64,000 nt of DNA from Trebouxia sp. TZW2008 (Eukaryota > Chlorophyta > Trebouxiophyceae > Trebouxiales > Trebouxiaceae): positions 62,001-126,000 of the forward strand of contig BDIU01000033.1 of NCBI GenBank assembly GCA_002118135.1, given 5' to 3'. The notes under the pieces are model-generated. The model made no database searches. It saw nothing but the letters and a program-made list of their open reading frames with translations, and was not told the DNA's origin. The first letter of the stretch is position 1. Each line of letters starts with the position of its first letter. Position numbers and translations under genes: made by a program. Of this stretch, positions 1-64,000 are shown in pieces.

Positions 1-2947
1 TGCCAGGTTTTCTGTAGGGTCTTCCTCCCTGACTGATGCCAAGCCTTGTAGACCAGAGTTGCGAGCAGTTCTGATGCCTGGCACATTCCCTTGTCCTGCT
101 GCTGCATCTGTTTGAGCCTGATTGTGCTGCTGTGCCAATCGTTGATGCTGTTCTGTGAATGATTGTGATGACGCGCGGTCCAGAGCTTGCTGTATCCTGG
201 ATCCTGATCGCTGCCGGCTGAAAGAGCGCCGCAGCTGTGAAGCCTGTGTCTTGCGCCTGTGAGCACATTGGGCACAATCAGAGATATTTCAATGCACATG
301 CAAGACCAAATGTGGCTTCCATTCGCTTGACAACCATTGACTGCCACACACTACATTGCCAGTAAAGCTGCTGTTCACTTAATTCAAGCCTAGCTGAGCC
401 CATGGAGCTTGTCTCAACAAGTGCACAACAAATGCACTTAATTCAAGCCTAGCTGAGCCCATGGAGCTTGTCTCAACATGTGCACAACAAATGCACTTAA
501 TTCAAGCCTAGCTGAGCCCATGGAGCTTGTCTCAACGTGTGCACAACAAATGCATTAATCAAGGCAGAACATGCAAACAGCACATATCTTTGTCGCATAC
601 TGCATGACAAAAGGCACCAACTCATTCCCGACTCAAGCACCTGTGAAGCACGATGATCACCATACCAGCTTGCATGCAGCAATGCTGTGATAATGCACAT
701 GTCATCAAACAGGCAAGAAGATCAGGGAGTGGACTGCACACCTGACAGCATTGTAGTGGATGGGCGCAATGTAGGTGATAAACACCTCTGCAGCCTTTTT
801 GGGCTGAGCCTCAGGCTCATACCGCATGAACCAATGCTGCTGATCACTGGTGATGACATTGATGACAATGCCATACGCCTCACATAGCGCTCTCTGCATC
901 ATGCACAGGAAGACAGGTCGGCATTCATGCTGATAGAACAAGTGGGCATGCAATCAAATTGTGACTATGGTCTCGGTAAAGCTTTGCCTGCTTCCTCTAT
1001 ATGCTTCCAAGTAGTTTACGTCAGCAGGCCTTTTATGTGAATGCTGCAAGAGGTGCAAAAGGAGACCAGACTGCAGATCTGATCAGCCCCAGCAGCCAAA
1101 CAACCCTCAGCAAACGTCTACAGCAACCTGCAGCCGGGCTGTGACACAGTAAGAGACACAAACAGGAACAGGATAGCTGTGCATCACGTGCCATGATAGC
1201 TCAGTGAGCCAGACTATAGGCAGTGCAGAAATGCCATAAGATTGCGTATCAAGCTACCAGCAGTGAAGGAAAATTGTCTAACTATCAAAGCTGTGCATTG
1301 GAATGGAGTTGCCTTGCTGCTTGGTGTCATTGCTGACATGGCCAATGGCGTCTGTTTGAATCAATTTTGGCAGCTCGACATGCGTGTATGTAGAGGATAA
1401 CGACAAGGATGCCAGAGCACAATGCCAGCGCTCACCAGGGTGAGCTCATCACCCCAGCTCTCATGCTGTGACATTTCTTTCAACCAGCCATCCATGTCAT
1501 CCCCTACGAACGCCTCAAAGTCTGACCGGTGATCCCGCATGTATTGCACAGCCTTTCGCCTGACAGCTCTGTGATATGCTTCTGTGCCAAACAAGCCATA
1601 AGAGATGGACCGAAACTGCAGCATGCAGTCAGGTGTCGATCAGTGCAGCATTTGGTCTTCTGGTAAAGCCAGACAGCCTTGTGGTATGCTTCTATGCCAA
1701 ACAAGCCATGAGAAATGGATTGGAACTGCATCAGGCAGTCAAATGTTAGCCAAACATGCAGCATATGAGACTGTCACAGTCTGGTACAGCAACAATCCTT
1801 CAGGAGGGCACAAGGGCGTACTGTCCACACAGAGCATAAACAGCTGTGCAGGAAGGCTTGTGTGCATGGGACACAAGTGCACAGACTTCTCAAAGATTGC
1901 AGACAACAGCAGATGGTTGTGCACTATCAATCTATGCATGCACAACAAGCACTTGCCGTGTGCGCCTGGCAATGCTGACATCAGCTAGGAGACGTGTCAT
2001 TGATGCAAGACCTGCCAGATTGGAAAATGGTCTCACCTGGCAAGCACCGTCAGAGCCCATGATGAACATGTCTAGTTTCAGCTTGTCAAGCCGCTGGTCT
2101 AGTCTCTGCTCATGACTCAGCAAATCTGAGTCCCAAGTTTTGTGGGTTGAGTTCTCCTTTTCCTCTTCTATTGCTTCTTCTAGATTCTGCCGGCTTTGTG
2201 TCCACAGATCAGTCTTCTTCAAGCTACCTGCCAGCAAAGCAAGACAAGCAAAGTCATCGTAAGGTAACTGCTGTACAAAAACAGGCGCTGCAATGGCTGA
2301 GGCCCTGCAATGTAGGGCTGCTGTCAATGCAAGCTGCTCTTGCAGAGCAGCGCATGAGACTCAGCAATCGATCTTGAGTCTGTTGACTTTGGGTGAGGTC
2401 ATCACAAGTAGCAATGCCAAGCTGCAGGCACGCACCGTTGACTTGGGGAGCATCTAATACTGGAGCTACTGAGGCAACTCTCCTAAAGTTTGTGGATGGC
2501 TCGCGCTGTGCTTGACCTTGATGGCGTTTGTTTCTGTGCAAAAAGTGGACTGTGGCATGAGATCTGCCCTGCACCACAGACGGCGCAACCTGTCAGCTGG
2601 CAAACTATAGCACAAATCTGAGTTGGTGACACAATTGCCTTGCAGATGAAAACCAATTCTGGCTTCCAGACCATGCAAGCCTTCTGGGACGGCGCCACAA
2701 AAGCTAAGCAATGAGAGTGACGGCAGTTGCGACAAGCCTTTCGCCGTTGTGAGCTTACTGCGGTGGTTGGAGCCTCGAAGCCGCGCAGTCCTGTCAGGAC
2801 CTCCTGTGAAAATCTATTCTGCTTGTCGGTGAACATGACCTCCGGTGGCTCGGCGTCTTCATAGTATACATTGCCTTTGCCAAGTTGAGGACTCGGGGAA
2901 AAACAGTTACAGAAACTCATAACGCGAGATCTCTTTTCAGACGTCAA
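1..2947 (-). CDS. OTU-domain cysteine protease (deubiquitinase), 3' end outside window
   Basis: Six exons were joined with consistent phase: 2947-2759, 2589-2436, 2227-2037, 1615-1436, 893-742 and 256-1 (continues off the window). An OTU peptidase cleaves ubiquitin from substrates. Exon 3 has an acidic, probably coiled-coil stretch and ends in SDGACQ. Exon 4 opens with FRSISYGLFG, giving the catalytic loop D174-G-A-C177 (canonical DGNC). The core continues with WGDELTL and AYGIVINVITSD. The catalytic His is H284 in IAPIHYNAV. The last exon is Q/S-rich, basic and probably disordered. The layout resembles plant OTU9-12-type proteins. The start is the first ATG of the reading frame; a second Met is at residue 10. 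It is head-to-head with MIS12. What is seen: the motifs and frame. What is inferred: DUB activity and the exact N terminus. Confidence 0.86.
376..553. repeat. 59-bp tandem repeat, 3 copies
   Basis: Three nearly identical 59-bp units, each containing GAGCCCATGGAGCTTGTC, lie inside intron 5 of the OTU gene (257-741). Differences are single bases, so the array is young. No coding or splice function is visible. Confidence 0.9.
1671..1730 (-). repeat. Decoy copy of the head of OTU exon 4
   Basis: Read on minus, an AG at 1727-1726 is followed by FQSISHGLFGIEAYHKAVW, a diverged copy of the true exon 4 head (FRSISYGLFGTEAYHRAV, starting at 1615). The copy is 110 bp upstream, inside intron 3, keeps its acceptor, and lacks the rest of the exon. 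The complete downstream copy is taken as the real exon. Confidence 0.85.
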
Positions 2948-3615
2948 GCCAGCAAATCACAGCCGTCCTAGGAGCAGTCGTGACTCAAGTTCAACTTACA
3001 ATGATAATTCCGTAGCTCTGCGCAAGTAAAGCCGCGGCGCGCTCGGCGATCAGCGACACCCGAGCTACACATGGAAGCTGGGAATCTGACATGACACAAG
3101 TTACTGCATGCTGTACTGCATGGCTTGCACTTGAATGCAAATGTGATCAGTTTGCGTGGTGTCATACTTTGCATGCACACATACTCGGGGTCAGAGTGCT
3201 CGTCTACCTGGCGAGCAGTGCATTACATAATTGCATAATGTGTACGCATGGGCATTGTGCAATGCATAATTCGACTGCAGTTCTGGCAACCCCTCGGCAT
3301 TGACCTCAAAAGCTACTGAAACATGACCTCAGGCTTGTGCTGAATGAACAGGGAGCGTTTACACAGCATATGCATGACCTGCAATTTCATTTCAGACAGT
3401 CTGTTGCTTGACTTCATAGTAGACGTGGTTGGTCCCGGGGATTTCGCTTGACATTTTGAATTCGTCAAATATCTCATGCAGTTGGTTCAGCGCTTCGTCG
3501 AGCTTACACACCGGACCAGCGTCAAGCAATTGACCCTCACACAGACAGCGAAGTCTTTGGTTGGGGAGTCGGCAGTTCTAGCTTGCAGCGTATCGGCTGG
3601 AGTCTGTGCTGTGAA
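2948..3615. promoter_or_regulatory. Shared 5' region of OTU (-) and MIS12 (+)
   Basis: 668 bp separate the two divergent start codons, so both promoters and 5' leaders must lie here. I see no TATA box or other named element. Short plus-strand reading frames (for example one ending at 3694) are not in the MIS12 frame and are not called. Confidence 0.5.
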
Positions 3616-7777: not shown

Positions 7778-8381
7778 GTGTATCGGGTGCAGCTTGCGGC
7801 CATGCCCCGAACCGTCCTGAGATCGACGCCCTTGACAGAAAGTCTATGTACAGCGTCAAGTGATCTCGCTTACCAATCCGCTCTACGATCTGATACAAGT
7901 CTTCAGCTACAAAATGCAAGCGGTAGATGCTCTTGCAGGCCCTCGCACGGCCCTTCCGCTCCTCGATGCAGAGCTTCTGTCGACACAAGCAGTCGCTCCA
8001 GAACCAAGATTTGTCATAAACTATCACCATTCACACTACTGCTGCATGCTTTTCGTTTCTCCCACATTTCAATGGCCGCTTGGGCAAGAAGTGTCTGTGC
8101 ACACCTGCAACAGTCAAATCTCAAACAGCATTACATGACGAAATTTTCGTCAAGAGGATGACAGTGAGTGATCTTCAATGACGTTGACAGCAGGAAGCAT
8201 TCGTCTGTGTCTAAGCTGTGAAGCATTTCGTCAGCGTGCGGTCTGGAGTCAAGAAAAGCACTGATTGCATGAAGATAAGCTGAGGGCCAATTGCAATATG
8301 ACTGCAACATGAAATCCAGCAACATGAGCATGTTGCTGACTTTGGTCTGGACCGAACAAGAGACGTTTGTTGTTGGGTCAT
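7778..8381. other. Intergenic: QC 5' region and NUP155 3' region
   Basis: 604 bp between the QC start and the NUP155 stop, both genes on minus. It must contain the NUP155 3' UTR and the QC promoter. A TGTAA motif on minus (8135-8131), about 250 nt past the NUP155 stop, matches the polyadenylation signal usual in chlorophytes. A 147-codon plus-strand frame at 7718-8161 has no recognisable motif and is not called. Confidence 0.5.
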
Positions 8382-11300
8382 CTACGCAGCTTTCTGCAAG
8401 GCAGGCGCGAGCTCGCTGCTGAACTCGTCAAACAGCTGCTGTACGGCCTGCTTGCCTGCATGCTGCAATCTTGCAGCCTCTGAGCTGTAACTAGCGCACG
8501 CCTGAACTATCTCTGACAACTGCACGAGACAAGACAGAGGCTCTTCAGAAGCTGACAACAAAGCAATGCAGTTTGTGCAATGCAGCAAAGCAATGGCATC
8601 AAATGCTGAATGCGTGTGCTGTTGCCGCAATCTGTCAGGGCCGTGACCAAGACAATGATCCTCTGCATGCCTATGCCTGCTGGCAGACTGATGCTTACAA
8701 GCCATGCAAATTTTGTGGGGATGCATCCAAGACAGATGAGCGGTTGCGCCAAGTCTTATGTCATGCTCAACAATATACACTGGCCCCACCTCTGTTCTCT
8801 CTATCTGTCGGTACGACTGGTATTGGCATCGATGCCGCTGTTTGCGCATCTCTGCATGCCTCGCCAAAAGAACAGCATGCAGTGACTTGAGCACCCTGAT
8901 GCGCAGGACTGGGGCCCTCACATCAGGCTTGGAGGGGTCCCCTCCAGGGCGCCCCAGCAGCTGCTCATATGCTGCCTGCACAACAGCTGGCTCCTCCCCA
9001 CATGCCTGCAAGACAGTGAATGCTGTTGTCATTTCGCTGTAAGCACTGGATTGTTCGTGTTTTTTCTTTTGCTTACGACTGCTGGTCGGCTCATCCTTAC
9101 TGTTATCACTGTCGTCATAGATGCATCAATGCTGTAACGGGCATCTTAGCAGCACCCTCTTGTGATCATCAAGACCAGATTTCATCAATGCTTTGTCTGG
9201 CAGCTCAGCAGCTGATCATATGTTGCCTGCACAAGAGTTGGCATCTCCCCACACGCCTGTAAAGCAGCACCTGTTACAAGGCAGCTGCAACAGTTGTCTA
9301 GCGTTTCCATGTCAGGCAACTGACTGTACTTGCACAAAGCATGTGGAACAAGATGCTGGTGTTTAGTGGTGTAAGCATTACACATACCGGACAGCGTCTC
9401 ACATACTTGCATCAAAGCGCCTGCAAGAGCATTGTGGACGTCCGAGGTATGCTTTGACCCAAGGCACCCCTTGGAAACCACTTTGCTGTTGCAAATGCCC
9501 CAGTGCATTCTGATGACATCGCAAGTTTGCTGTCTTCAAGAGGGATTAAACAGCAGACCTCAATTATATGTCATGAATACCTGCACCAGAGCGGCTGCAA
9601 CAGCAGTGTAGACTTTGCAGCACCTTCAAAACCAGACCTTCAAAGTGCCTTGAAGAGCATACCGCTGTTGCAGACGCTCTCATGCCGTTTCTCATGACAA
9701 TTTTGTGAAGTCTGCTCTGTGCAAAAGGTGTTGTACAGCATGGCTCACACACATGCCATGATGCCCTGCACCAACTGCAGCAACCATGTGGTCTTCAAGA
9801 GGTGCTTTACGCTTTACACTCAAGGCACCCCTAAAAAGACTTTGATGCTGTTGCATACGCTTGGTGCAGGTTCTGGTGACATTGTCTGTGGAGTCTGCTC
9901 TTGACAAAAAGTACTTAACAAGATAGCTCACACACACGCCCTGATGCCCTGACATCGAACCTTGTAGAGGTGCTTCATGCTCTTTACTCAAGGCACCCTC
10001 AGCAATACCACCATGATGTTGCAGATGCCCAGGTACAGGTCCTCATGACATTTGGTTGGAAATTTTGCTGTCTTCAGGAGATATGCAACATCAAGTTACA
10101 CAGATGCACATCATGTTGACCTGCGCCAGAGCGTCTGCAACAGCAGTATAAGTTTCAAGGGTTTTTGATTGCAAGGTGTTGCTGACCTGTGCTGATTGGA
10201 CCAGACCTTCTTGGCTGCCTTATAGCATTCGTACAACATGTGCGACCGGCTGCAGGGCTGCACTTCTTCTTTTAGCTGCACATGTGGCATGAATGCCATA
10301 AGACAGTCAAGAAGGTTTGGTCTGGTCAGCACCCAGTTAACAATTCCTTGCAATCACAGATGCCTGTGTCACGTGTCATTGTCTATGACAAAATATGCAG
10401 TCCATTTGTTGCCAGCGCCTTGTCCTTTTGAGATGTTGCACCCAAGCACTTGTCTGTTCCAACCCAAGAGCAATGTGGGGCTTTCAAGGGTCATGTTGCG
10501 AAGACGACAGCAGGCGTACCTGCGCCAGAACATCTGCGAAAGTGGTTTGACAGGGCAGCGTGTAGAGGCAGTGACTGCAAGGAATTACTGACTGATCACA
10601 CCAGGCCTTCTTGGCAAGATCAAGGCACTCACCGCCCATGAGTGCCGCTCATGAGTGCCTGAAGGTAGCCAAAAAGGCCTGGTGACCAGCACCCAGTGAG
10701 CAAATCCTTGCGACCACAAACCACTGCATCACTTGTGTCTGTGTTGCATTGATGAGCCCATTTGGTTTGGGCGCCTTGTCCTTGTGAAGATGTTCACCCA
10801 AGCATGTGCTGGCTCCATCCTGAGAGCAGTTCGGGGTTGCCCAGAAGCATTTGTACAGAAATCGTCAGCCAAAGCTGCGTCATGGCATCATCGACAACAA
10901 AAAGATTTTGCAGGGACACATTGGTCTCATGGTGCCAAGCTCATGGGGGCCATGTGCGGGTGCAAAAACTCGCGTCACAGAAACATTGTCAGCCAAGCGT
11001 GCAACATGCCATTTGCAGCAGCAGTTGTATGCTTTTGTAGGAACAGGTTGTCCTCATGGGGCCATGCTGGTAAGAGCAATGTGTTGGTGCCCAAAACCAT
11101 TTTGCAGAGACCCTGTCATGCATACCAGCACCAGAGCGTCAATAACAACAGTGTGGCTTTCACAAGGTGCCTTGAACCATGCAATCAGGGCAAGCTTTCA
11201 AGGAACCCAAAGCTTGCCTTGGGTGCATCTTTTAAGGCACGTCTTGAAGATCACACCGTTATTGCAGGCACCTGGCTGCAGCTTTGTATGACTTGCATGT

Positions 11301-14300
11301 GAAGTCTGCTATCTGCAAGAGGTAATCCACAACACACTTAACTTACATGCCAGAGTATGCTGCACCAGAGCGTCTGCGACCTCAGGACGGTTTTCAAAAG
11401 GTGCCATGAAGACTACATCCAAGGCAAGCTCTTGGAGATCAGTCTGCTGTTGCAGACGCCTGGCTGTAGCTTTGTGTGACTTGCATGTCAAGTTGCTTTC
11501 TTCAAGAGAGAGTCCCTAACACGCTGAACATACATGCCACAGTATCCTGCACCAGAGCGTTTGCGACCTCAGGACGGTCTTCACGAGGCGCCTTGAAGAC
11601 TGCACCCAGAGCAAGCTCTTGCAGACTACACTGCTGTTGCAGACACCTGGCTGCAGCTTTGTGTGACTTGCATGTCAAGTTGCTTTCTTCAAGAGAGAGT
11701 TCACAACACACTTGAAATACATGCCACAGTATCCTGCACCAAAACGTCTGCAACATCAGGACGGTCTGCAACAGGTGCCATGAAAAATATATCCAAGGCA
11801 AGCTCTTGAAGACCACACTGCTGTTGCGGATGCCTGGCTGCAGCTTTGTATGACTTGCATGTGAAGCTTGCTATCTTCAAGAGGGAGTCCACACTCCACA
11901 ACAAACTTGCCGTACATGCAATGTACCAGAGCGTCTGCAACAGCAATGATTGCCAAATCGCTACCAACATTGCAGTGTATGGTGCCAAACGTCAAGTGGC
12001 ACCCGGACCATCATATTCACCTGTAAAACGCCTGCGACAGCAGTGTAGTCTTCAAGGCGCACCTTGTGCGGATGAGACCATACATCAGCGGATATTTGCT
12101 GTAGCCTGAGACTCATGCAGTGTGAACAAATGGCAGACATACCTGCACTAGGGCGTCTGCAACAGCAGTGTGATCCTCAAGGGGCGTCTTGTCCTTGTGC
12201 GGCCACACACCAGCAGCCATTTGCTCCAGCCTGAGAGCAATGTGGTCCAAGGGTAGCGCTGTAGAGCTTGGGTAACACTGGCCTGTCACACGCTTCAGCC
12301 TCTCAAAGGCTTGATTGCATCGTGCTGACAGCGTCTGCAAACCTGGCAGCTCATACCCCTACAGCGGAGAGACAGGACTTAGCACACAGCACTTCTCAGC
12401 AAACCTGGAACAGCTCAAAGGCCTACACCAGGCTGACAGCGTCTGTAAGCCTGCCAGCTCATATCCCTGCAGCAGAACAAGACCATAGTTTGGTGGTGAT
12501 GTGGTCCGGTGGTGGAGCCCTAAAGCTGGAGCAACTCTGCCCTGTCACAGGCTTCAGGTTTCGAAAGGCCTGACTGCCCTGAGCTGACAGCGTCTGCAAA
12601 CCTGGCAGCTCATACCCCTACAGCAGAGCAGGATTCAGAGCACAACGCTTGCCAGTATTTCAAGACATGTTCTGTAGTGCAAGGGTGATGGGGTCCAGTG
12701 GCAGTGATGTGAAGCACTGCCCTGTCACACGCTTTAGCCTCTCAAGGCCTGACTACATCTGGCTGACAGCGTCTGCAAGACTGGCAGCTCGTACCCCTAC
12801 AGCAGAGAAGCAGGACGTGACACACAGCACTTTCCAGCAAATCTGGAACAGTCCAAAGGCCTGTCTGCACCCGGCTGCGTCTGCAAGCCTGCCAGCACAT
12901 ACCCCTGCAGCAAAACAAGACCAGATCCACCCTGTCTGAAGCATGCACCAGCTCAGTGCAGGACTCCACTGGTGATGCGAGCAGCGTACTGGCTGTTTAG
13001 GCTTGCCTAGACAACAGCAATGCCATGCTGGTGCGACCATGGTGTACCTGTGTTTTGGGTAAATTTGCTGTTGCATGTGGGCCACATGTCTACCTCATGT
13101 GAGGCATGCACCAACTCAATTCAGGACATGCAATGATGGTATGGGGCAGCGTACTATTTGTTTCCACTATTGAGACAAAAGCAGTGCCACGTTGGTGCAA
13201 CCGTAGTGTACCTGTTTGAGGTAGAGGTCCCACAGTTGCTGCACGTAGCCCAAATCCACTCCATCTGAAGCATGCACCAGCTCAATGCAGGCTTCCCACT
13301 GGTGATACGGAGCAGCATACTGGTTGAACAGGTCCACCAATGGCTGAGGGGCGTCTTGCAGAGCCCTTAGCCGCAGGCCCAAATCATCTGGTGCATTGTC
13401 AGGCAGGCTGCCAGACGCCTACAACATGAGTCAGCAAGAGTGACTGATCATTGTGGTTAATGAAAGGAATGAAGAAAGGTTTGTTGATCAGGTGCACCAA
13501 GGGCTAAGGGTATCCTGAAGAGGCCTCATTTGCGGACCTAGATCATCTGGGGCGTTGTCAGGCAGGCTGCCAGACGCCTGCAGCATCAGTCAACAAGACT
13601 GGTGAGTCATGATAAATTATTGGTCATCATGACTGATCAAGCCAATGAAGGAAGGGGTGGTGAAAGCAACATGTCATTCACAACAGCAGTGTGTGGAATC
13701 AATGCGTGTGAGACGAGCCTTTGGGTAATCGGCTGGAGCAAGACTGTGATGTATCGTGCATGAGGTGCGATGCACACGGAGGTGCAAGGGATGCTATGCA
13801 TTGAGCAGCACTGCGAGCAGCCCGTGTTGGATGCAGCTGATTCAGCGCAGCCAGCTGAGCAAACTGCAGTCACACTGTTGTGCTCATCTAGTGGTGCTGA
13901 ACTAGCTGAGACCAAAATGCGTACTCCCCACAGAGCCAAACACACAACATTTATTTGCAGCACATGCACTCAGATCTGATTGTCAAATGCCAGACACAGC
14001 TGGGCCTGGAATGTCCCAGCAGCCCTGCAACAACACTCAAAAGCCAAAAAGCAAATACTTGCTTGCAGAGTCAGGACATAGTGAGCAGGACTGTGGGCAG
14101 CCCATGCCGGCTCAAGCTGATGCGTCACTCTTAGACCAGCAAAACGAAGACCTGCTGTTGTACTGGTCTTGACTAGTGATGAATCAGCTGAGAACGAGAG
14201 GCATGCACCCCACAGAGCGGCAAAGACAAACAGCGGCCCACTTCAGCACACAACACAAGAGATAAGCTGGGCAACAGTTGGTGTCAGACGCAGCTGAGAC

Positions 14301-17300
14301 TGGACTGAGATATCACAGCAGTCTTGTCAAAAGCGCCCAAAAGTTGTCAAAAAACACTTGAATGCACAGACACAAGACCCCATTAGCAGAGCAGAACCAT
14401 CCTTTCTTCTGTTTCAGTGATGCAAAACTAGTCCTGGCGCAAGGTGAGAGGCTGACCTGCATTTGTGTAAGCTCCTGGACTAGCCTGATCTGGATGTCTG
14501 TCAGCTGCACATTGGTCTCCATGGCACTGATGATGCTTCTGTTCCCCATGGCCTGACCCTGCAAAGCCCAATGCAACATTGCTTACTGCCTGCTGAGCTG
14601 CTGCGTCAGGCAGAATACAGCCTGACAAGATTTTGGTGGATGCTGTGCCTGTCTTCACTGCAACAACAACAACAATTGGGAGCTGTTGCGCTTGACTCGT
14701 ACACAAAGGGGAATTGCATGGTAGCTTCTAGATTTGGTCATTACCAGATGTAGCTGACTCCGAGGTCAGCCTGACAGTGTCATCAAACTTGCAAGCAGCG
14801 ACGATGCAAGTGACATGTTTGCTCGTAAAGCAAAGCTTGTCAGCTTGGTGCCAGACACAAAAGGAAGAAGGGAAAAGCAGAAGGATGCAACAGACAAAGA
14901 AAGATATCAAAGAGATTGCAGACAACTGTGCCCAAGGAGGCACACCTGCATGACCGCCATCCTAAACAGGTCCAGCCGTTTCTCCAGCCCAACAGGATGA
15001 CTGCTGTAGCCATTCTGACGTGTGGCAAGGGCGTTGAACACAGCAGCTGCGGCCTCCAAGCAGTCATTGCCCTCCGCATGGATGTACACCTTGGCCAACA
15101 TCTCCAGGCTGGCCACCTGCTGGGGGTCCAGACCCACCAGGGGGGCCGTGGCTACCCCCAGGCTGGGCTTGGTGTCTGCTGGCAAGCCCCCTGCCTTCAG
15201 CAGATGCTTCTGAACCTGCAGCAGAAAGCGTCATGAAGTGTCAGCAACGTATATTGTCGTACCTGCCGTGGGTCCAGACCCACCCGAGGGGGAGGAGGGA
15301 ATGGAATCAAGTGGACAGCGTTGGCAATGAGTCAGTGATTTCTGAGAAGGAGATTGGAGGGCCATGCAATGTCTTCTAGCAGGTGCTTGTGGACGCAGGT
15401 GGAAAGCAGGCAAGCTGTTCAGCATGCACATGCGCATGTGTTTCCAATGTCACTGTAAGTAGCGTCATATTTCGGCAGGCCATAACTACCAGCTGTGCAT
15501 GGGAGTTCTCAAGATGATGGCATGCCGCCATGCCTCTGCGGGACCGTGTGGCACAAGCACAGCGCAGGGCAGCACAGCATGGCACAGCATAGCGCCACTG
15601 TCATCACCTTGGTGAACATGCCGGGGGCTTGACTCAGTTTGATCAGCTGGAAACTGCCCTGGCTCTCACAAGCGCTGCCAAAGCAGCATATCATAGCACA
15701 GCACAATACCACATAGCACAGCACAATGCAGCATAGCACAGCACAGCACAGCTCAGCGACAGTAGGGCATAGCCAAATGCTAAAGCCAACTCCTTGGTGA
15801 CCATGCCTGGAGCTTGACTAAGCTCGACAAGCTCCAGGCATGTTCACCAAGGCCCTGGCACTGACAAACCCCACCAATGCAGCACATCGCATGACAACAC
15901 AGCGCAGCGCATCACAGCATGGTACAGCACAGCGCTACTATCCTTGCCTTGATGAATATGCCTGGGGCTTGACTGAGCTTGAGCAGCTTTGAAATGACCC
16001 TGACACTAACAATGCAGCACATTGCAGCACAGCACAGCGCAGCACAGTACCGCTCTACTGTCGCCACTTGGGTGAACATGCCAAAGGCTTAACTGAACTT
16101 GATCAGCTGGGAAACAGCCCTGGCACAAGTGTTGCCAAAACAGCATATCACACCACAGCACAGCACAGCACAGCACAGCTCAGTGCAGCACGGTAGGGCC
16201 TAGCCAAATGCTAGTGCCATCACTTTGGTGAACATGCCTGGAGCTTGACTGAGCTTGTCGAGCTCAGTCAAGCTCAAGGCATGTTCACCAAAGCCCTGGC
16301 ATTGATAAGCCCCACCAATGCAGCACATCGCATCACAGCACAGCACAGCACATCCCAGCACGGCATATCATAGCGCTACTGGCATCACCTTGGTAAACAT
16401 GTTTGGGGCTTGACTAAGCTTGATGAGCTCAGGAATGGCCCTAGCACCCACCAGTCCCGCCAGTAGTTGCTCAAGAAAGAAGTTGTCCTTGGAGCTAGCT
16501 GCTTTCTGCAGGGCAAACATCACAAGTAAGCACAGGTTGATCATGACAGCTGTAGTCAGTGAGTGTGTGTCAACATGTTTCAATGTTGGATATGTCAACA
16601 GGTCAACGCATTGTGTGTGTATCAACACATTCAGGGGTCGCTTTTGCCAGTAACTCCAGCAAGTGCTGCTCAACAGTGTTACTGCTTGTGAGGCATGTCA
16701 AAGGCAACACAGAGCTGCAGCATTGTACGTCCATGCAAAAGACACAGATTGCTGTCAAAGTCAGTACAATGAGGCTTGCTCACATTGAGGATGCCAGCTT
16801 TAGCCTGGTTGGCCGCATCCGCAGGCAGACCACCCTGCTGTGCCAGCACAGCACCAGCCCCTTCCTGTAGGCTGGGGTTGACCAGGTACTTCAGCACTTG
16901 GATGACAGGTGCGTACGCCTCCTCCAGACGTCTCTGCACACCAACAAGGCAAATGCACATCTGCTTATGGCCCTGAACAGCAAATGTCTTCCAGGCAGAT
17001 ACACAACTGCATTGCATACAGTCTCTGAAGCTCAGTATCTTTGCACGCCAACATGCAACTCATTCAAATGCAGAGCAACCTCAACTTTGGATTGCTGCGC
17101 AGAATTGTCAGACGAGACAAAGAAAGCCTATGAAACCTCAGATACAGCTAGATGCTGCCAATCAGAGTCAAATCCCATGTAGCCTGTCTTCTCTAAGTAC
17201 AGAGAATGAAAGGATGGCAGGAGGGATTGATGTACCTCTCGAGCCATACGGCCTGCATCAGAGCTCTGAGCAGCAACCTGTTCTGGGTCAATGGTGCCGG

Positions 17301-20300
17301 CCTTGGCTAGCGCAAGGCTGACCATGCCGTCATACGCTCCCAGTTGGGCTAGCAGGGGGGTGACTTGAGCAACATCTACGCTGCTAGACACCTGTACATA
17401 CGAAACTCTACTCAGGCTGAAGCTGAGTCTTGTTGAGGGCTTGAGTCAATATCTGCCAGCAGGCAAACGCTGCGTGTAGGTATGTTGGGCTGCTGGTATG
17501 TTTCTTGCTCAATTCTGGACAGCAATTTGTCAGTAAAAGCCTTGACTTATGCACTGCAGCAGAGCCATGAGCATCAAACCTGTTTGCAAGCAGATGCAAC
17601 CCTTTCATCAAGCACTGCATAAGCCGATGCTCATAACTTGCGTTCTGATTAGCTTCTCAAGTGCTTCCCATGAGATATATCAGAGGGGCCAGACAAAGGC
17701 TTGCCCTGATGAGCATCTCAAGCGCTGCTTGAGTGACGTCTTGGCGCTGGCTGCCCTTTTGTGTTGCATACACACCGCAAACAATAGCACAAGCACTCAG
17801 GCCTGGGCTGTCGATGGTGGTCCTGTCAGAGTCACATCACGTGGAACATGCAGTGTCAGCTGGGTAAGAAAGGCTTACCCTGATCAGCTTCTTCAATGCT
17901 GCTCTGGTGACGTCTTGGCGCTGGCTGCCCTGCAGGGTCTGTGCGCGCCGCAGCTCGCCATTGGCAGCATAGTATATCTTGTCGTCCTCCTTAAAGTAGG
18001 AGGGGCAGCCCTGCTGCAATGCATTGGACAAACTGCTGTCTTCTAGACCTGCACATGCAACAACAGCAAAGTTATGGTGATGATAGTAGCAATGATGTCT
18101 TGGCGCTGATTGCCCTGCAGAGTCTGTGCGCGGCGTAGCTCGCCATTGGCAGCATAGTAGATCTTGTCGTCCTCCTTGAAGTAGGTGGGGCAGCCCTGCT
18201 GCAGAGCATTGGACAAACTGCTGTCTTCTAGACCTGCATAAGAAAACCAAAATGCTTGCTTGGACACGTCAAAACCGTGCAATAGTGAGGAGGCTTGTTG
18301 AGCGCAGGATGAATCAGACATGATTGACATGTGCCAGAAATTGCAAGTGGTTCCCATGCAAATACTGTCATAGGCTAGATGAGTTGAAGATGAACAGCCA
18401 GACTGCAAGCCTTGCCATAACCTGCTGCTTGCTGGTGCTCGGTCGGAAGCACTGCAGTGTCTCCTTAACAGCTTTGGCACATGCAAAAGAAGCCTGAGGC
18501 GTTGCGGAAGGTCTGCCTGTACCAGTTCTGGTGCATGGCTTTCCCATGCAAACGCCCATGCAATTCCCTAGATGCATTGAAGGCCAGACTGGATGCCATG
18601 CCTAAGTTGCTGCCTTGTGTTGACCATCTAACAGTGTGCTACATTTGCATAGCAGGAACTTGTACGGCCCTGTAACATCAATGAGTCAGAGCAGACTGCA
18701 TGCATCCCTCATGCAAGGAGCCTCTCCGACCCCTCTCCATTCCTCATTTTCACAAGGCCCAGCATCAGGCTAAGATCAACAGCAATGCTTCACCTGCTGC
18801 CTTCTGGTGCTCATCTAGAAGCACTGAGATGAGCTGTGTCATAGTATCCTCGCCCTCCTTGCTGCACACCAGGTCTTTCAGGCTCATGGCCTGTAAGCGC
18901 TTCCGCCGAGCGTCTTCTAGGAGGGTAGACAACCGCGAGAGTTGGTTCTCAATCAGGACCCTGACCAGGTAGCAGCCCTCACTAGCTCTGCTGACCAGCG
19001 CAGTCACTTCCTGCACCCTGCAGCATGAATACATGCCTGTCAGCTTGACTGAGCATGATCAGTGCGTTTGTTTCCTGGCACCTTCACCAAGGATGCATGC
19101 CAATCAGCTTGACTGTTATGCATGTGAATGGTTGGCGTTCTGAGATTCAGAGCACGGCAGCAGACACAGGGCTGCAGACTTTGTCTGCTGCCATGTTCTG
19201 ATCTTGACGACAAGCTTGACCAAATGAGAGCACAAATGCTTGATGGGTTGCATGGTTAAGACATGTGCGTCTACCTGTCAGCTTCCTGTGCTGCAGGGTC
19301 ATCAAGGCGCTGCCGCTTTGCAGGCGGGTTGGCACGGCCTTTGCTGTCCAGCTGACCAAACGTGCTGCTCAGGCCCACCCGTCCAAAGTAGCTGGCAGGC
19401 TTGGCACGTGCCTTGCGCAGCTGCTCCACCTTGCGCTGCTGGTAGTCCCCTAAGAAAGCGGACAAGGACCGCAGCCGTGACTGCAGAGCCTGCATCCAAA
19501 CAACAGTTTGATTGCTGTGATGACTGTGGGGTTGGTGGGCGCAGCTATCACAGCCGGGCTGTCAAGCATGGACAAGACATGGGTATGCAACCTCAGCATG
19601 AGAACTGGCTGTCTCTGACATGTCAGATAATATGTGGGCGCATTGCAGCCTGTGTTTGAACTTTCTTGTTGACATGATTGATGGCTTGACGAAAGGGCAA
19701 ATGCGGCGGAGATGCGGTCAACACATGCGTGTCTCAGCACATAGATTTGACAAGCTGACTGCTGAAGAAATTCGTGACAACTTGCCAAGCATGTTGCATG
19801 TGTGGCAACTTGCAACCCCTTTCCAACAGCATGTATTCCATCCTTCTATTTGAAAAAGGACAGCTCTGTCAAGATGTGCTTACCTTGAGGTTTTCCTCTG
19901 AGAGGTTTGGCATAAGGCTGTTGGGGTTGCTCTTTGTTGGGCTGGTAAGCTTTGTGTCCCACATGGGATGAAGCAACCTCTGCAAATATATTTGCAAGCC
20001 CCTGTGCCCACCTGACCACTCTGGCTTGTTGGCCTCAGCAACAACCTGGAATCAACAGCAAGCAACCCTCATTCTGATTCAATTGCATGCTCTGCCAACT
20101 GAGCCTGGGGTCAGCACGCCAGTCCAGAACTTTGTTTTGCTATGCTTCTTGCCCAGCAAAGGGCTGACAGTCAAGAGATGTGAGGCAGGCAATTGCCTCC
20201 TCACTGAGCCCAGCACAACGACGTACTTGAACTTGACCATAGAAGACATGCACATAGAAGACATGCACATAGAAGACATGCACATAGAAGACATGCATGC

Positions 20301-22436
20301 ACATAGAAGACATGCACATAGAAGACATGCACACGTAAGCAGAAAAGGTATAGATTGACATGGCCATGCAACATCAAGTTGCGCCAGGAATGATCAACAC
20401 AAATGTGGCCAAGTCACAAAACAGGGTATGCAAAGATGCAGATGTTTGACGGCTCCGTCTGGACACAGCCTCGTACAGCAACACCTAATCAGATTTGTCT
20501 TGTCTGTTCCTGATGCAGGTGGGACTCACCTCTCCCATGTAGAAGCCGGAGCCCTGTGCCGCAGGATGTGAGGCAGAGGCCTGCTGCCCTGAAGGCATGG
20601 TAGGCTCCCCAGTCAGCCGCACGTCCAGCAAGGCTGCTCGTGCCTTCTCAACCACTGTCTGTCAGGCATATCAATGCTTATAAGTCAGGCTTTGTGAGGA
20701 ATTACGAGGGCTTGAAGGCCGATGTTTGTGACACAAACTTCACTAATGCACATAGAATGCAGGGCCTTCTCGGTCATTGCCTGTCGGATCTGCACACTGG
20801 ATGTTGATGCAGGACGCTGCTGTGCAAAGCTGACAGGCTGAGCCTTGTGAGCTCTCACAAATTGTGGCATGCTTGAGGATTGGTAAGCTTTTGTGGGCAG
20901 ACACCTTGATGTATGCACTAGTTGTGCTGATGACAAGCTGATGATGGAAATGCATGGGGCTGTTCAATGGCCATGTGCAGAGACTTACGTCAACAGGCAA
21001 GCAAACAACAGTCATGCATGCAGTTGATAGTTTGAATGTAAGCAGCAAGATTTGCTTGATGCTACTGTTGCTGATTGCACAGTTATTGCTGATTGGCATG
21101 CATACCGACGAGGCCTCTTGTGTATTTGCCGTTGCCACAAAGTAGCACATGGCGGAGGCTTCTGCAGCGCCATATGCACTGAAGAACTGATCCAGCTTGC
21201 CAGGCATGTCTTCCCTCAGAATCTGGTTCAACACATCCACAGGCCGCAGCTTGATGGCTTCTGTTGCTCCTGTACCTCAAGGAAACTTTACTCAACAATG
21301 CATTCAAAACAAGTGAACTAGCTGCGTTCTATCATAGCAAAAGTTCATCTCCACAATGTTACAGCATGAGTAGAACACCTTGTGCTATCCCAAAGAGATG
21401 CAACTGCTGGCGCCCTGCAGGTGCAGTGCAATGAAGTACAAGGCACACATTGCATGAAAGGAGTGATTGTAGGGATGCAGGCAAACAACTGCAAGAGGAC
21501 AATCAAGTATGAAGGAGGGGCTAAGACAGTGGATTGGGCACATAGACACAGCACTGCTTGCCTGCTGTAGTCACGACCATGAACTGCTGTGCAGGAGTGA
21601 CATGCTGGGTGGCCAGCTCTGATTTGACAGAGTTGTCAATAACTGGTAGCAGCGGCTTAGGCTGTGGGCACACCCCGAATGCCAACACCTCCCCTGTACA
21701 TGTAAACCACAGATTGAGTGAGCAAGCTGTGTGGCTGTGCAAATGAAAGCAAAGCCTTTCTGGCATGCAGCCTTGCCAGCGTCAGCAATGTCAGACAGAC
21801 GGACGGACAGAAAGACAGAGAGAGAGACAGACAGACAGACAGACAGGCAGGCTCAAAGAGCAGAGACAATTAATGCTGGAAAGATCTCGCTATCACATTC
21901 TGTGCGTTGTGCTGGCTGGTTCAGCTCCAGGCCTTAGGGAATGCGTCGCCCAAATCTCACCCGCAACCTGCTGTTGCTGGAGAGACGTTGCTGACACACT
22001 CCCTTAGGCCTGGAGCTGAACCAGCCAGACGGAAAGAGCGAACAGACAACCAGATCAAACTGACAAAAGGACATATGTCCACAGGTCAGCAAAAGTGTTG
22101 TCAGGCTGACCTGCTGTGATTGAACAGATCTCGTCGACATGGTCTCTGAGGCCTGTAACTGAGCCGTTCAGCCAGTTAGCCAGACAGACAGATGGTGTCA
22201 CATATAGACAGATGTAAAAGCCAGACGCGTCGCTGGCGAGCTAGTCAACTGTTGCTGGGGACACCTTACTGACACACAACCTGAGGCCTAGAAGTTAGCG
22301 AAAAACACAGATAGACGTGTTTGCGGAAAGTCATTAAAGACAAAGAGCAGAGACAATGCTGCTGACCTGCTGTGGCTGGAGAATCTCGCTGACACATTCC
22401 CTGAGGCCTGAAGCTGAGTTGGCTCAGCTCAGCCTC

Positions 22437-22468
<32 letters not shown>

Positions 22469-25400
22469 GACAGACCAACCAAACGACAGACCAAGCGACA
22501 GACCAACCGACCAAAAGATAAACAGACAGACAGTTGAATAGGCCAGACACAGACGGTGCAAGAGCAGAAAGTATCATGTTATGCTGACCTGCTGTTGCTG
22601 GGGAGATTTCACTGACGCACTCCCTAAGGCCTGGAGCTGAGCCAGTGCTAGTGCCGACAGGGGCAATGGTCAAGTCCCTGCTGACCAGCAGCACTCTGCT
22701 GTTGCCATCAGCAATTGTGTCACCTAACAGGAGCGTCCCCTGGCTATATGCGGCCACAGTCACATTCAGGCTCCTACACCAAGATCACACCTTCAAAATC
22801 TGGCAGAATTTTAAGCCTTGTATGCCAAGAGGATGTCGAGTAGCTTTTGACTGCTGATTGGAAACTTGCAGCAGCAACAGCAGTGGCACCAACAGCAGCA
22901 GCAGCAGCAGCAGCAGCAGTGTTATACCAAGCTGACTGGAGTTTATTGGTCAAGGTTGACTTGAAGCACTGTAATGCAACTTTGTGACTGTCCATGAGCA
23001 AGAAGGCATTCCCCAACACTCAACAGGTCATGACTGGTGACTCATTGACAATGTTGCCACAATCAGCATTCTCAGTCAAGAGCCGCAGCATTGAAAGAAA
23101 TAGATTGCGCAAGGCGTAGACCTCTGGGCAGGCTCGTGATCTCATTGAACGTATCAGCAGCAACCACCTGCAGAGCATGAGCTATGTGCAGAGTTGCTGT
23201 CGGCTGGCAAAGAAGCATCAGGGAGCAGGGGAGTGAGTGCAAGCTCACACACAAAGGGTGAGTTGAAAAGGGTTGCTCAACAAACCTGCTTTGGCCCTGG
23301 TAGGGTGGTGCAGGCACAGCACTCCTGGTCGTCACAATAGACAGGCAGAAGGGCCGCTTGCTCAGAGGCACAGCGCCTGAGTGGGCAGGTTGAGTTGACA
23401 AATACACCCTGCGGCCGTCTGCTGTGACTGCCATGAGGTGCAGGGAGGCAGACTCGGAAGGGGTGATGGGGGCAATCAGTACCAGAGCTGAGCCTGGGCT
23501 GTTTTGACCTGCACATCAGTCATTGCATTCAACAGGTTGACGTGTACAATCCGCAGCCAGCAACACTGTGACAGCCCCATCAGGTGCAGGGAGGCAGACT
23601 CTGAAGGGGTGATGATAGCAATCTGGACAAGAGCTGAGCCTGGGCTGTTTTGACCTGCACATCAGTCATTGCATTCAACAGGTTGACGTGTACAATCTGC
23701 AGCCAGCAACACTGTGACAGCCCCATCAGGTGCAGGGAGGCTGACTCTGAAGGGGTGATGACAGCAATCAGGACAAGAGCTGAGCCTGGGCTGTTTTGAC
23801 CCGCACAGCAATGACCAGGATACACAATGTTAATAGTACGTGCTGCAGCCGTCTGCTGTGACTTCCATGAGGTGCAAGGAAGGCAGACTCTGATGGAGTG
23901 ATGGAAGCGATGAGCACAAGAGCTGAGCCTGGACTGTTTTGGCCTGCACTGCATTTGTTGTATTCAACAGGTTGACAGGTACACCCTGCGGCCGTCTGCT
24001 ATGGCAGTCATGAGGTGCAGGGAGTCAGACTCTAGCTAGTTGATGGGAGCAATTTGGAGAAGCGAGGTCCTGGGCTGTTTTGACCTGCACAGCAGTGGCC
24101 CTGAAACAACAGGTTGAGAAATTTACCCTCCTGCCGTCTGCTGTGGCAGCCATGAGGTGCACACCCTGCTGTGCAGGTGAAAGCACCTCAGGCTCAGCTC
24201 TTGCACTCACTATTGTCATCACCCTGGCAGACTTTGGCAGAGTGATGGGTGCAATGAGTGCAAGAGCTGAGCCAGGGGTTTTTGGCCAGCACAGCAGTTG
24301 CTGTCATCGGAGCAAGACCTGAGCCTGGGCTGTTTTGACTTGCACAGCAAATGCCGTGATTGGCCCTATGTGGTGCAGATAGTCTGGTTGTCATTGTTTT
24401 GTCATTTTGCCTATATGGGTTCAGGTAGCGTTTGCATGATATTACGTGTGACAAGAGCATGCTTGAAGTTAGCGTGTTGCCATCTCCTCTTTGATACGAT
24501 ATGTTCCAGTGACCTGCACTCCACACCATGCACACGCATGGATGGACTTAAAGTCTGCCAAAGCAGATTGCACCTTTCAACCTCTCAAGTCGCTTGAACT
24601 TATCTGGAGGCAGATGAGTTCAAGCTCTCAAGTCGCTATCTGGAGACAGGTGAGTTGCAGGCACAAAAGCAGCACATCATCCTCTCCTACTAAACAGTTT
24701 TGCAAACGCATTGCAAGGTCAGCAGCAATACAGCCAGCAAACTCACACAAACAACTGGAAGGCATAGTGGTGTTACCTCTTTCTGCAGTGGTCATGACGT
24801 TGGCCATCTCAGTGATCTTCTTCACTGGCCCCACACCAGACATGCCCATGTCAAACATCTGCAGCCAATTAGCACAGCTTTGTCTCTTAAGCCATGATCA
24901 ACTAGATTGCAGGTTTTGCAATAGTCCATGCAAGATGAGCAATCTCTACAGCATCACAGGCCGAGGGAACATGTCACAAGTGTGAAACTGTCATGAACCC
25001 AGCATCAAGGAACAGACAGGCTATGCATTATGCAAAAGACTTTCTGGTGAAGGCAAGTTGTGCTTGCAGTCTAACAGCCAGACAGGCTCACCGCAATGAC
25101 GCCAGACTGGGAGCGGGTGTACAGGATCTGCCTGTCGCGGTCAATCACAATCTGCATGATGGGGCTTGCTTTCCTGAAGATGGTCCAGCGCGGCAGATAG
25201 GCAGCGAAGGTGCCTGTGTAGCACACCTGCCAGACACATAAATTTTCTCAAAATGACAAAAGTAAGCTACGGCTGACCGAGCCTATCATGCGACCAGCGC
25301 ATAACAGGCAGCCAAATGCAACTATCACAACCACACTTGCAAACTGCAAAAGCTACCTCAGCATACAGGAAACAAGCTGCGATTCACAAAGCATACACAC

Positions 25401-26875
25401 CACCAGCACATGACAGACAGGCAAATGATCCTATTGCGAGCAGCATTTCACACAACACACAAACCCGTAAGCATACGGCAGACAGGCAGTCAGCCCTGCT
25501 GCAGGCATGATTGAGCATGTCAGTCAGTTGCTGCTACACATGACTTGTAGGTCTGCTCACTTTGTTACATCTGCCTCGCAGCCATGAGTTGTGGTTCCTG
25601 TACTCCAACTCATACAGGTGACCATCATTGCCTCCAAGGAAGATTCGCCCTTCAGGTGTGCTTGTGATGGTCGTCATCAGCACGTCATCAGAGGGGGTTC
25701 TGAACTGCTCAAGGTTGATTAACCTGAGCTCTGCATTGCCATTGGCATCTCTCTTCAAAGAAACACCCACCAGAGCAATCTACAAAGCAGCATCCAGGTT
25801 CTCACATTGACAACGGCCATGTATGAGCAACGCTGTTGTGTGCCATGTATGATATGCTGTGCTGATTGCTGTCTTGCCCTGAATGGCTGATGAACAGTCC
25901 ATTCCTGCAGTCTCAGGCCCCCACAGGTAGGCCTCAATGGGACAAACCCAACTCAAATAGGGAGCCTATGGAATGCCAGGTTCAAGAAAGAAGGCCACAG
26001 TTCAAGTGATTGGCAGTTGTATTGAAGGCATGACATGAAATAATCCTTGCTTGGCCTGACATGTGCCAACATTGCAGCCACTCAAATGATATATTCATGT
26101 GTGACTGCTGACGTAGCCATGATGCTGGCAGTGACACATGTCAAAGCAGCTTGAATTTGTCAGTTTTGGCGTACCTCTACAGTGGTGCAGACCACCAGGA
26201 CATGCTGCACAGCTTGCTGAAAGATGTTGGCTTTGGGTCTTGCCAGCCCAGCACAGCAGATCGCCTGTTCTTCCTGCCACTTGACTGGCACTGACATTCT
26301 GCGGAAAGCAAGTACGTTGGAGTTGTTGCTGCTGGGTAGAGTTCATGCATTCTGGTCATGCACTGCACCTGACCTGCAAGTGTCCCAGATGAACAGCAGA
26401 TTGTCAACAGAAGCCCATGCATGCTGAATGTCTGTGAATACCCCGCAGAAGCAGGCTGCTTGCATCTGACGCTGGCTATCAATCACCATGTCTGGCATGG
26501 GCCTCGTGATTGCAGCTTCTTGGCTCAACAAGGCCGGCCACTGCAGCACGTTCACTCTCAGAATGGCTTTTTGAGACACTGCCGTCTGATCATGCGATGT
26601 CAACGTTTGGCAGGTACAGGAGAGCTGTGATGTCTTACCCCAGCAGGCAACTCGCCATATTGTGCTTCTCGACTTGAGTTTAGCAATAAATCTTTCAAAT
26701 CAATACGCTGATGATCAGAACGTGCAATGCTGTTCATCTCTTTCAACGCTCTACCTACAACCTCAACGTTCTGCGCAACAGGATTATCTTTGACTTTGTT
26801 GCTCTCAGATGTCTGTGCAGGCGCTGAACCGTCCCAGAGCGACCGGCCTGGCGGCGGACGCGAGGTCCGAGCCAT
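8382..26875 (-). CDS. NUP155: Nucleoporin NUP155 (Nup155/Nup170 family)
   Basis: Twenty-six exons: 26875-26639, 26540-26374, 26298-26175, 25779-25561, 25226-25092, 24858-24777, 23508-23286, 22773-22589, 21693-21562, 21275-21106, 20658-20530, 20045-19884, 19489-19275, 19017-18794, 18048-17879, 17391-17236, 16933-16784, 16505-16389, 15215-14946, 14787-14745, 14657-14587, 14558-14457, 13418-13212, 12334-12143, 9005-8790, 8519-8382. Every junction keeps phase; 4236 nt, 1411 aa, close to animal (about 1390) and plant (about 1460) NUP155. It is an inner-ring scaffold protein of the nuclear pore. N-terminal beta-propeller markers: VDNLLFIWD, WQEEQAICCAGLARPK, TPEGRIFLGGNDGHLYELEY, RQILYTRSQSGVIA, LHLMAVTADGRRVYLST. 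Then VKSELATQHVTPAQQF and KLRPVDVLNQIL lead into the helical solenoid (GLQIYLQRLLHPMWD, LQAMSLKDLVCSKEG, GCPSYFKEDDKIYY, LVDLFNQYAAPYHQWE, STALPLDHIALRLEQ). Exon 9 ends in a GC donor; exon 10 has tandem acceptors 6 nt apart; the exon 20 acceptor is AAG and the weakest call. Confidence 0.95.
9230..12090 (-). repeat. Decaying array of decoy copies of the NUP155 exon 24 tail
   Basis: NUP155 intron 24 (9006-12142, over 3 kb) is mostly degenerate repeats of the real exon tail (LEDHTAVADALVQ, donor at 12142). On plus, the signature CACCAGAGCGTCTGC recurs near 9586, 10123, 10520, 11120, 11362, 11548, 11730, 11928 and 12030. Spacing is about 185 bp in the better-kept part (11.3-12.0 kb). Some copies read LEDYTAVAGVLQ with a GT just after. 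Near 9210-9265 there is also one 5' copy of the next exon (ACGEMPTLVQATYDQLL; real one ACGEEPAVVQAAYEQLL at 9005). Confidence 0.85.
12430..12900 (-). repeat. Four decoy copies of the NUP155 exon 24 head
   Basis: The real exon 24 opens with TLSARCNQAFERL at 12334. On plus the matching word GCTGACAGCGTCTGC recurs near 12432, 12582, 12762 and (shortened) 12872, each with an AG acceptor on minus. The copy at 12582 still reads TLSAQGSQAFRNLKPVTGQ before failing. Flanking sequence shows a higher-order duplication of about 440 bp. Confidence 0.85.
13500..13583 (-). repeat. Decoy copy of the NUP155 exon 23 head
   Basis: On minus, CTGCAG is followed by a close copy of the start of exon 23 (ASGSLPDNAPDDLG, real start 13418), about 150 bp upstream. 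The copy then diverges. Tail copies of the same exon, including the HASDGV and KQ-donor part, lie downstream at about 12930-13160. Confidence 0.8.
15600..16300 (-). repeat. Five decoy copies of the NUP155 exon 18 tail, with CAGCA-rich spacers
   Basis: The real tail ELIKLSQAPNMFTK with donor at 16388 is copied near 15605, 15792, 15947, 16065 and 16220 (for example SQAPGMFTK before GTGATG). Two units (15792-15850 and 16225-16290) carry an inverted second half and form palindromes. Spacers are runs of AGCAC. The array fills intron 18 (15216-16388). A partial head copy of exon 19 lies at 15260-15400. Confidence 0.85.
17630..17765 (-). repeat. Two decoy copies of the NUP155 exon 15 tail
   Basis: Downstream of exon 15 its last codons recur: GSQRQDVTQAALEMLIR before GCAAGC near 17715-17765, and EALEKLIR near 17640-17665. 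The real tail is DVTRAALKKLIR with GTAAGC at 17878. A copy of the exon 14 tail (CLLDEH-like, then QQ and GT) also sits upstream at about 18420-18460. Confidence 0.75.
18090..18232 (-). repeat. Near-identical upstream copy of NUP155 exon 15
   Basis: Copy A reads GLEDSSLSNALQQGCPTYF and onward for nearly the whole exon, with a good AG acceptor and the same entry phase as the real exon 15 (18048-17879). Most differences between the copies are synonymous. Copy A lacks the last 11 codons and any clear GT donor. Possible alternative exon or recent duplicate. Confidence 0.9.
20238..20334. repeat. 15-bp minisatellite (ACATAGAAGACATGC)n
   Basis: About six copies of a 15-bp unit in NUP155 intron 11. 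The length is a multiple of three, so it stays open in several frames, but it is intronic and not coding. Confidence 0.9.
21781..21850. repeat. GACA/GACAGA microsatellite
   Basis: An imperfect GACA tract in NUP155 intron 8. A second, longer one with runs of CAGA and then CCAAC(C) variants is at 22434-22545 in the same intron. Confidence 0.9.
21912..22029. repeat. Inverted repeat, arms about 36 bp
   Basis: The left arm (from 21912, CTGGCTGGTTCAGCTCCAGG) is the reverse complement of the right arm ending near 22029, with a loop of about 45 bp. Both arms derive from the tail of NUP155 exon 8, so one copy was inserted inverted. Confidence 0.8.
21985..22415 (-). repeat. Decoy copies of the NUP155 exon 8 tail
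   Basis: The end of exon 8 (APGLRECVSEISPATAG, donor at 22588) is copied near 21985, 22255 and 22370 on the same strand, separated by GACA tracts. Example: GLRECVSEISPAT-like reading with GGTCAGC after it. The sequence round the GT is retained in the best copy. Confidence 0.8.
22893..22919. repeat. (CAG)n microsatellite
   Basis: Nine CAG units in NUP155 intron 7 (22774-23285). The stretch 23072-23175 of this intron has a frame with a good acceptor, but exons 7 and 8 already join in phase without it. Confidence 0.9.
23640..24350 (-). repeat. Array of decoy copies of the NUP155 exon 7 head
   Basis: The real exon 7 begins at 23508 with GQNSPGSALVLIAPITPSE. The same head with its GTGCAG acceptor recurs near 23646, 23796, 23937, 24078, 24290 and 24340, roughly every 145 bp, decaying with distance. 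The copies at 23646 and 23796 still read QNSPGSALV and ITPSESASLHLMGLSQ, then run into stops. All lie in intron 6 (23509-24776). Confidence 0.9.

Positions 26876-34120: not shown

Positions 34121-64000
<29,880 letters not shown>

Follow-up and report, generated by a model that had tools for sequence, protein, structure and literature searches.

The origin of intron sequence and length is an old question that has often been answered with transposons. Gao and Lynch reportedly described internal gene duplication, in which exons are duplicated and whole exons or introns are multiplied. The Trebouxia introns described here share with it local duplication within genes, but their copies are mostly exon edges without coding capacity. 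They also resemble minisatellites and higher-period intronic tandem repeats in having many copies in tandem arrays that are detected by Tandem Repeats Finder, except that the Trebouxia units contain an exon edge and are anchored at one end by a functional exon. Duplication of exonic AGGT segments appears as a route of intron gain in one review (PMC3443670). That model likewise involves tandem duplication with the extra sequence spliced out and the protein unchanged; however, it makes a new intron, and its signature was not convincing in 69 Trebouxia introns.

The nearest published relative is a single potato gene, RdRp, where a tandem duplication crossing a splice junction made a new intron (PMC4974935). 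As in potato, the duplicated segment in Trebouxia spans the 3′ splice junction and carries splice signals. Unlike in potato, the Trebouxia introns appear to have been lengthened, the outer copies are non-coding, donors are involved as well as acceptors, and there are 75 copies in two genes. The genome of the lichen alga Asterochloris has about nine introns per gene, and the word "tandem" is absent from the main text of its report (PMC6652019). A search of open-licence papers, judged mostly by their listings, found none that describes introns made up of copied edges of adjacent exons.

The window, by which we mean the whole 64,000-nucleotide stretch analysed (C33:62001-126000), comes from a genome of 68.5 Mb in 527 contigs. 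The copies were studied in two genes:

8388..26875, minus strand: NUP155 gene; 24 exons and 0 frameshifts in the spliced alignment to Trebouxia P0001/P0002
34277..64000, continuing past the window to about 73998, minus strand: UBR4/BIG gene; 47 exons modelled, part of them with low confidence

The 24-exon NUP155 model combines the models from two orthologs, and the UBR4 spliced-alignment model also has 0 frameshifts. In the spliced protein-to-genome alignments, 1011 of 1330 aligned residues of NUP155 and 1753 of 2746 of UBR4 were identical to the Trebouxia ortholog. The NUP155 query matched Trebouxia spp. C0005, C0004, and C0006 with 60–68% identity over the aligned part, the UBR4 query matched Trebouxia C0005 with 48% identity, and an unlinked gene on contig C10 matched Trebouxia C0005 and C0006. 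These matches mark the organism as a Trebouxia-like green alga. Protein queries and splice-site matrices were derived from a self-trained gene finder, and the matrices were seeded with typical consensus values. Exons with less than 50% identity to the ortholog or shorter than 75 bp were excluded from the copy tests, which removed some weak UBR4 exons. Acceptors in the alignment models mostly end in TGCAG, and donors are mostly GT with some GCAAG. GC-AG introns starting with GCAAG occur in these models at the donors of exons 21562-21693, 37469-37701, 38558-38854, 40278-40415, and 60840-61012 of NUP155 and UBR4.

Exon-edge copies in the introns of NUP155 and UBR4

Introns in these genes contain copies of the edges of their neighbouring exons, and the pattern is strong. 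For NUP155, partial extra copies of exons, with heads upstream and tails downstream, are visible by tblastn alone. The first-pass annotation had proposed aligning exon edges to their own introns as a check. Alignment of exons to introns in NUP155 and UBR4 gave scores of at least 50 for 32 of 111 adjacent pairs (upstream introns, 17 of 55; downstream introns, 15 of 56). None of the 1744 non-adjacent pairs scored as high, and 3 of 111 did so in the reverse-complement control. The result was replicated in the unlinked C10 gene (adjacent, 5 of 28; non-adjacent, 0 of 147; reverse complement, 0 of 28).

At a Smith-Waterman score of at least 44, we catalogued 75 exon-segment copies in NUP155 and UBR4 introns, 64 of them within the window. 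Of the 69 introns mapped, 27 hold such copies, 1 to 7 each; for the window the figure is 23 of 57. The annotation had counted at least 30 introns with up to ten copies; the copies are there, but that figure, although plausible, was not reproduced from two genes. Its description of a polar arrangement held well. Upstream copies reached to within 12 bases of the exon start in 39 of 43 cases and the exon end in 1 of 43, and downstream copies reached the exon end in 28 of 32 cases and the exon start in 2 of 32. Copies of full exons are rare, with both exon edges reached in 3 of 75. The following arrays illustrate the pattern, together with two intron-only arrays that served as a control class:

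23536..24339, minus strand: seven copies (period 146 bp) of parts of NUP155 exon 23286-23508, of which six include its start
18093..18233, minus strand: one head copy (92%) of NUP155 exon 17879-18048
12414..12904, minus strand: four head copies of NUP155 exon 12143-12358
15608..16267, minus strand: five tail copies of NUP155 exon 16389-16505
21968..22418, minus strand: three tail copies of NUP155 exon 22589-22773
47610..48040, minus strand: three copies of the head of UBR4 exon 47398-47578, with a period of 154 bp
41399..41692, minus strand: two copies (91%) of the head of UBR4 exon 41134-41343, with a period of 177 bp
36263..36899, minus strand: four head copies of UBR4 exon 35911-36166
39567..40206, minus strand: four copies from UBR4 exon 39234-39491, three with the exon start
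38246..38504, minus strand: two tail copies of UBR4 exon 38558-38854
49342..49725, minus strand: two copies of the head of UBR4 exon 48929-49321, with a period of 202 bp
52146..52644, minus strand: acceptor-crossing array at UBR4 exon 52020-52214; 214 bp period; 95% matches over 1.9 copies by Tandem Repeats Finder, 86% by blastn over a longer span
11234..11893, unstranded: intron-only tandem array (control class) in a 3.1 kb NUP155 intron; 187 bp period
58343..58873, unstranded: intron-only tandem array (control class) in a UBR4 intron; period about 177 bp

The array at 52146..52644 has junction copies at 52428 and about 52638, and its exon fell below the identity filter of the catalogue. Just outside the window, at 64873-65589 in window numbering, lies an array (L003) of 188 bp units with 95.7% identity at UBR4 exon 65442-65694. 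Its unit consists of about 125 bp of exon alternating with about 63 bp that starts with gtgag and ends near ttgcaag; instead of having decayed, its copies might serve as expressed tandem exons.

The median length of introns with copies was 817 (n=27) compared with 383 for those without (n=34), an excess that is partly expected because long introns have more room. About 38% of the intronic bases in these two large conserved genes are in local direct repeats, and no dispersed element family was seen.

According to the annotation, only the innermost copy is the real exon, and the comparison with orthologs bears this out. Among 495 codons with differing residues (summed over bins), the Trebouxia residue was matched by the inner copy in 337 and by the outer copy in 29. 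Codon position 3 accounted for 0.48 of the exon-copy mismatches, where we estimate 0.47 if a neutrally evolving copy is compared with a constrained exon. In addition, 58 of 62 indels in the copies were frame-breaking, and 18 mismatches created stops. This mismatch pattern, the indels, the stops, and the ortholog matches together indicate that the outer copies evolved as non-coding DNA. They also support, at the level of sequence, the earlier proposal that an extra junction is harmless if the inner site is used, so that the intron grows and the protein is unchanged. With the exon end of each copy conserved, the copies record intron growth like fossils that carry their own reference, and a model of neutral intron expansion is thus directly testable in Trebouxia strains.

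Copies of donors decay as neutral sequence. Outer acceptors scored 5.61 on average, whereas uniform mutation would give 2.9 to 3.9 (P = 0.006 to <0.001); the scores use the same seeded splice-site matrices as the spliced alignments. Selection maintaining the outer acceptors was considered and is unneeded, since GCAG, TGCA, and CTGC are among the best-kept words across all repeats. On C33 and C10 taken together, TGCA is very common at 16.1 per kb, whereas ACGT, at 1.5 per kb, is rare; loss of CpG may be behind this contrast.

Local tandem duplication and the splice junction

Similar sequences that lie close together on the three contigs compared are nearly all in direct orientation, and arrays of at least two units occur, as local tandem duplication predicts. 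At distances below 300 bp, direct versus inverted similarities numbered 97 versus 1 in 84 kb, 30 versus 0 in 60 kb, and 3 versus 0 in 28.6 kb. At 300–600 bp the corresponding counts were 51 versus 5, 11 versus 0, and 0 versus 0, and direct matches more than 5 kb apart numbered 1, 1, and 5 across the three contigs. Homology fills the whole unit in several intron-only clusters (e.g. 9664, 15556, 15924, and 68939) and in some junction arrays, but not in many junction copies. Across a sample of 243 kb, local direct repeats covered 27% of C33 (124 kb), 10% of C10 (60 kb), 12% of C20 and 18.5% of C300 (10 kb each), 1% of C1 (28.6 kb), and 0% of C120 (10 kb). The word composition of C1 is about the same as that of C33, and that of C120 deviates.

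The unit size of 100–200 bp given by the annotation agrees with the 143 clusters, which have a median period of 153 bp with quartiles of 110 and 185. Only three have periods of 200–220, and this sharp drop near 200 bp is a possible hint at mechanism. A length of about 200 bp is close to the nucleosome repeat length. Cluster identity peaks at 80–85% and is above 90% in only 5 of 142 (one further cluster, below 65%, falls outside this histogram), which gives no support to ongoing steady duplication. The scarcity of young duplications suggests an older burst, loss of recent duplications in assembly, or homogenisation. Copies had also been said to decay with distance from the exon. This did not hold, as the 10 arrays with at least three copies had a mean rho of +0.20 and no fall in identity with distance (permutation P = 0.859 for a mean this low or lower).

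The annotation attributed the copies to tandem duplication across splice junctions, and we compared the placement of clusters with random placement. The two genes contain 66 clusters in 58.2 kb. Of these, 37 span a junction, 28 are intron-only, and 1 has both copies exonic, where random placement predicts 21.7, 30.3, and 14.0, respectively. None of 2000 random placements had so few both-exonic clusters. This depletion is the expected outcome of purifying selection, which we infer to be its cause. None of the 2000 placements had 37 or more junction clusters, and junction clusters formed 0.57 of the junction and intron-only classes combined, compared with 0.42 expected (P = 0.0135).

This raw excess was examined by a simulation that placed duplications uniformly, removed the exonic ones, and let exons decay more slowly (25 runs per setting). 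In two settings with older ages, the simulated junction share was 0.58 and 0.60, close to the observed 0.57. In these settings the median identity of intron-only clusters was 75, compared with about 74 observed (read from the distribution), and that of junction clusters was 76.5 to 77.5, which is below the observed value of about 80. With younger ages the share was 0.49, none of the 25 runs reached 0.57, and an excess would remain; the ages were picked after the data had been seen, and the conclusion of no excess depends on this choice. An earlier, rough age cut on the junction clusters (13 versus 28) was superseded by the decay simulation.

Given older event ages, the match between the simulation and the split of 37 to 28 indicates that a preference for junctions is not needed. 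What distinguishes the junction copies is that they stay recognisable for longer and that both-exonic duplications have been removed. Their polarity needs no extra cause, because in a tandem duplication that crosses a junction, it is always the inner copy that remains attached to the remainder of the exon. Thus, tandem duplication of units of about 150 bp fits, but a process specific to junctions is unneeded, with intron-only clusters near their expected number and the junction share close to that simulated with older ages.

Outer splice sites and competing explanations

These data are probably best explained by random local tandem duplications filtered by selection, with intron growth as a by-product. 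Local tandem duplications of small size, for the most part about 50 to 200 bp, would arise in large numbers regardless of splice sites. Selection would remove most of those in which both copies are coding, and those internal to an intron or crossing a single junction would survive. A duplication that crosses a junction would leave a complete exon at its inner end only; splicing at the inner site would then keep the protein unchanged and lengthen the intron by one unit. The geometry of this step is observed, and we infer use of the inner site from the conservation of the inner coding sequence. Exon definition favours the shorter exon between long introns and probably aids the preference for the inner site. 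The outer copies would go on to drift as non-coding DNA, as their mismatches indicate, and arrays of several copies were probably extended by unequal exchange.

One feature falls outside this account and is the sole sign of something linked to the junction: homology stops at many outer splice sites. In 16 outermost upstream copies, identity was 0.78 to 0.91 per 10-bp bin on the exon side. On the intron side it was 0.68 compared with a null of 0.64 in the second bin, with no mean excess beyond. Averaged over bins 20–80 bp out, the upstream flank had an identity of 0.60, where uniform breakpoints would give 0.68 to 0.70 (sd 0.02) and the null is 0.61. In 15 outermost downstream copies, identity was 0.65 to 0.85 on the exon side and clearly above the null on the intron side in the first 10 bp only; the downstream flank 20–80 bp out averaged 0.63 over bins (null 0.62), with the uniform-breakpoint expectation modelled on the acceptor side only. 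These values come from a version of the flank test with a milder gap cost, which replaced one with a harsh cost. In the L003 donor array, the outermost copy has gtgag in common with the real site and then diverges, and in the 52146-52644 acceptor array, blast homology stops a few bp past the outermost junction. The homology is contiguous across the junction in a minority of cases (NUP155 exons 17 and 20; UBR4 exons 27, 33, and 40). Beyond the outermost copy, the intron gives a match to the spacer in 7 of 30 cases, and in five of them the match lies directly at the junction.

Two sources of the spacer were tried and rejected. Against the continuation of the exon on the expected diagonal, identity was 0.256 upstream (null 0.247) and 0.230 downstream (null 0.243); a one-base shift gave 0.304 downstream as the best of 13 shifts, and a minority of spacers exceeded the shuffled level. 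Against the intron on the other side of the exon, 1 of 28 tests had p<0.05. As causes of the stop in homology, we considered old edges left after exchange within arrays, filler DNA at the point of duplication, and breakpoints at splice sites.

The last of these would mean that duplication is directed to splice sites, with a breakpoint at AG or GT arising, for example, from transcription- or splicing-linked breaks, and with a unit made of an exon edge, the splice-site core, and new spacer. If true, an event in DNA linked to splicing or transcription would repeatedly add one exon-edge unit to introns. The abrupt loss of homology in the outermost upstream copies and in the two arrays above fits this idea, as does the raw excess of junction clusters. 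So do the outer acceptor flanks, whose base composition and TGAC content (0.50, n=16, compared with 0.44 for real acceptors and 0.19 for background) are like those of real acceptors and which score as high as real sites. However, the broader branch-point pattern is not enriched in these flanks (0.25 compared with 0.44 real and 0.23 background), the well-kept words in all repeats can produce high acceptor scores without selection, exchange within arrays could leave old and decayed edges, some cases have contiguous homology through the junction, and the age-matched simulation left no junction excess over intron-only clusters. We therefore consider directed duplication unlikely. Strong outer acceptors would also be expected if the copies were once exons or are alternative ones, mutually exclusive exons for example, and some copies are nearly whole exons (e.g. 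those of UBR4 exons 45298-45377 and 53032-53168). This reading is very improbable in view of the rarity of copies that reach both edges, the frame-breaking indels and stops, the neutral mismatch pattern, and the better match of the inner copy to the ortholog.

Intron birth by duplication of AGGT-containing exon segments (the Rogers model) involves the same class of mutation as random local duplication, and births are expected where tandem duplication is frequent. Among the 69 introns, however, the best score of an exon tail against an intron tail was 14 (null maximum 20), and that of an intron head against the head of the downstream exon was 18 (null maximum 14), a weak match in a single case, with the others at 8 or below. 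No score for heads or tails came up to the cut of 24 used for listing, and we give this model as little credence as alternative exons. Least probable of all is that a mobile element, for instance an introner-like one, was inserted, even though introners have been reported in 5% of the species searched in one survey (PMC9860276). The copies match only their own exon (none of the 1744 non-adjacent pairs), direct matches more than 5 kb apart are very few, and a 1001-base stretch containing an array matched only itself genome-wide, in a search that scored only the best candidates and skipped common words. Similar intron sequences at many unlinked sites, as introners would leave, were thus not found in these comparisons. 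Spacers had blast matches almost solely to their own array, and the remainder were simple-repeat-like.

Perfect hexanucleotide microsatellites also occur within the UBR4 span, with AGCAAC at 51040-51156 and TCTCCC at 43104-43150 of the window.
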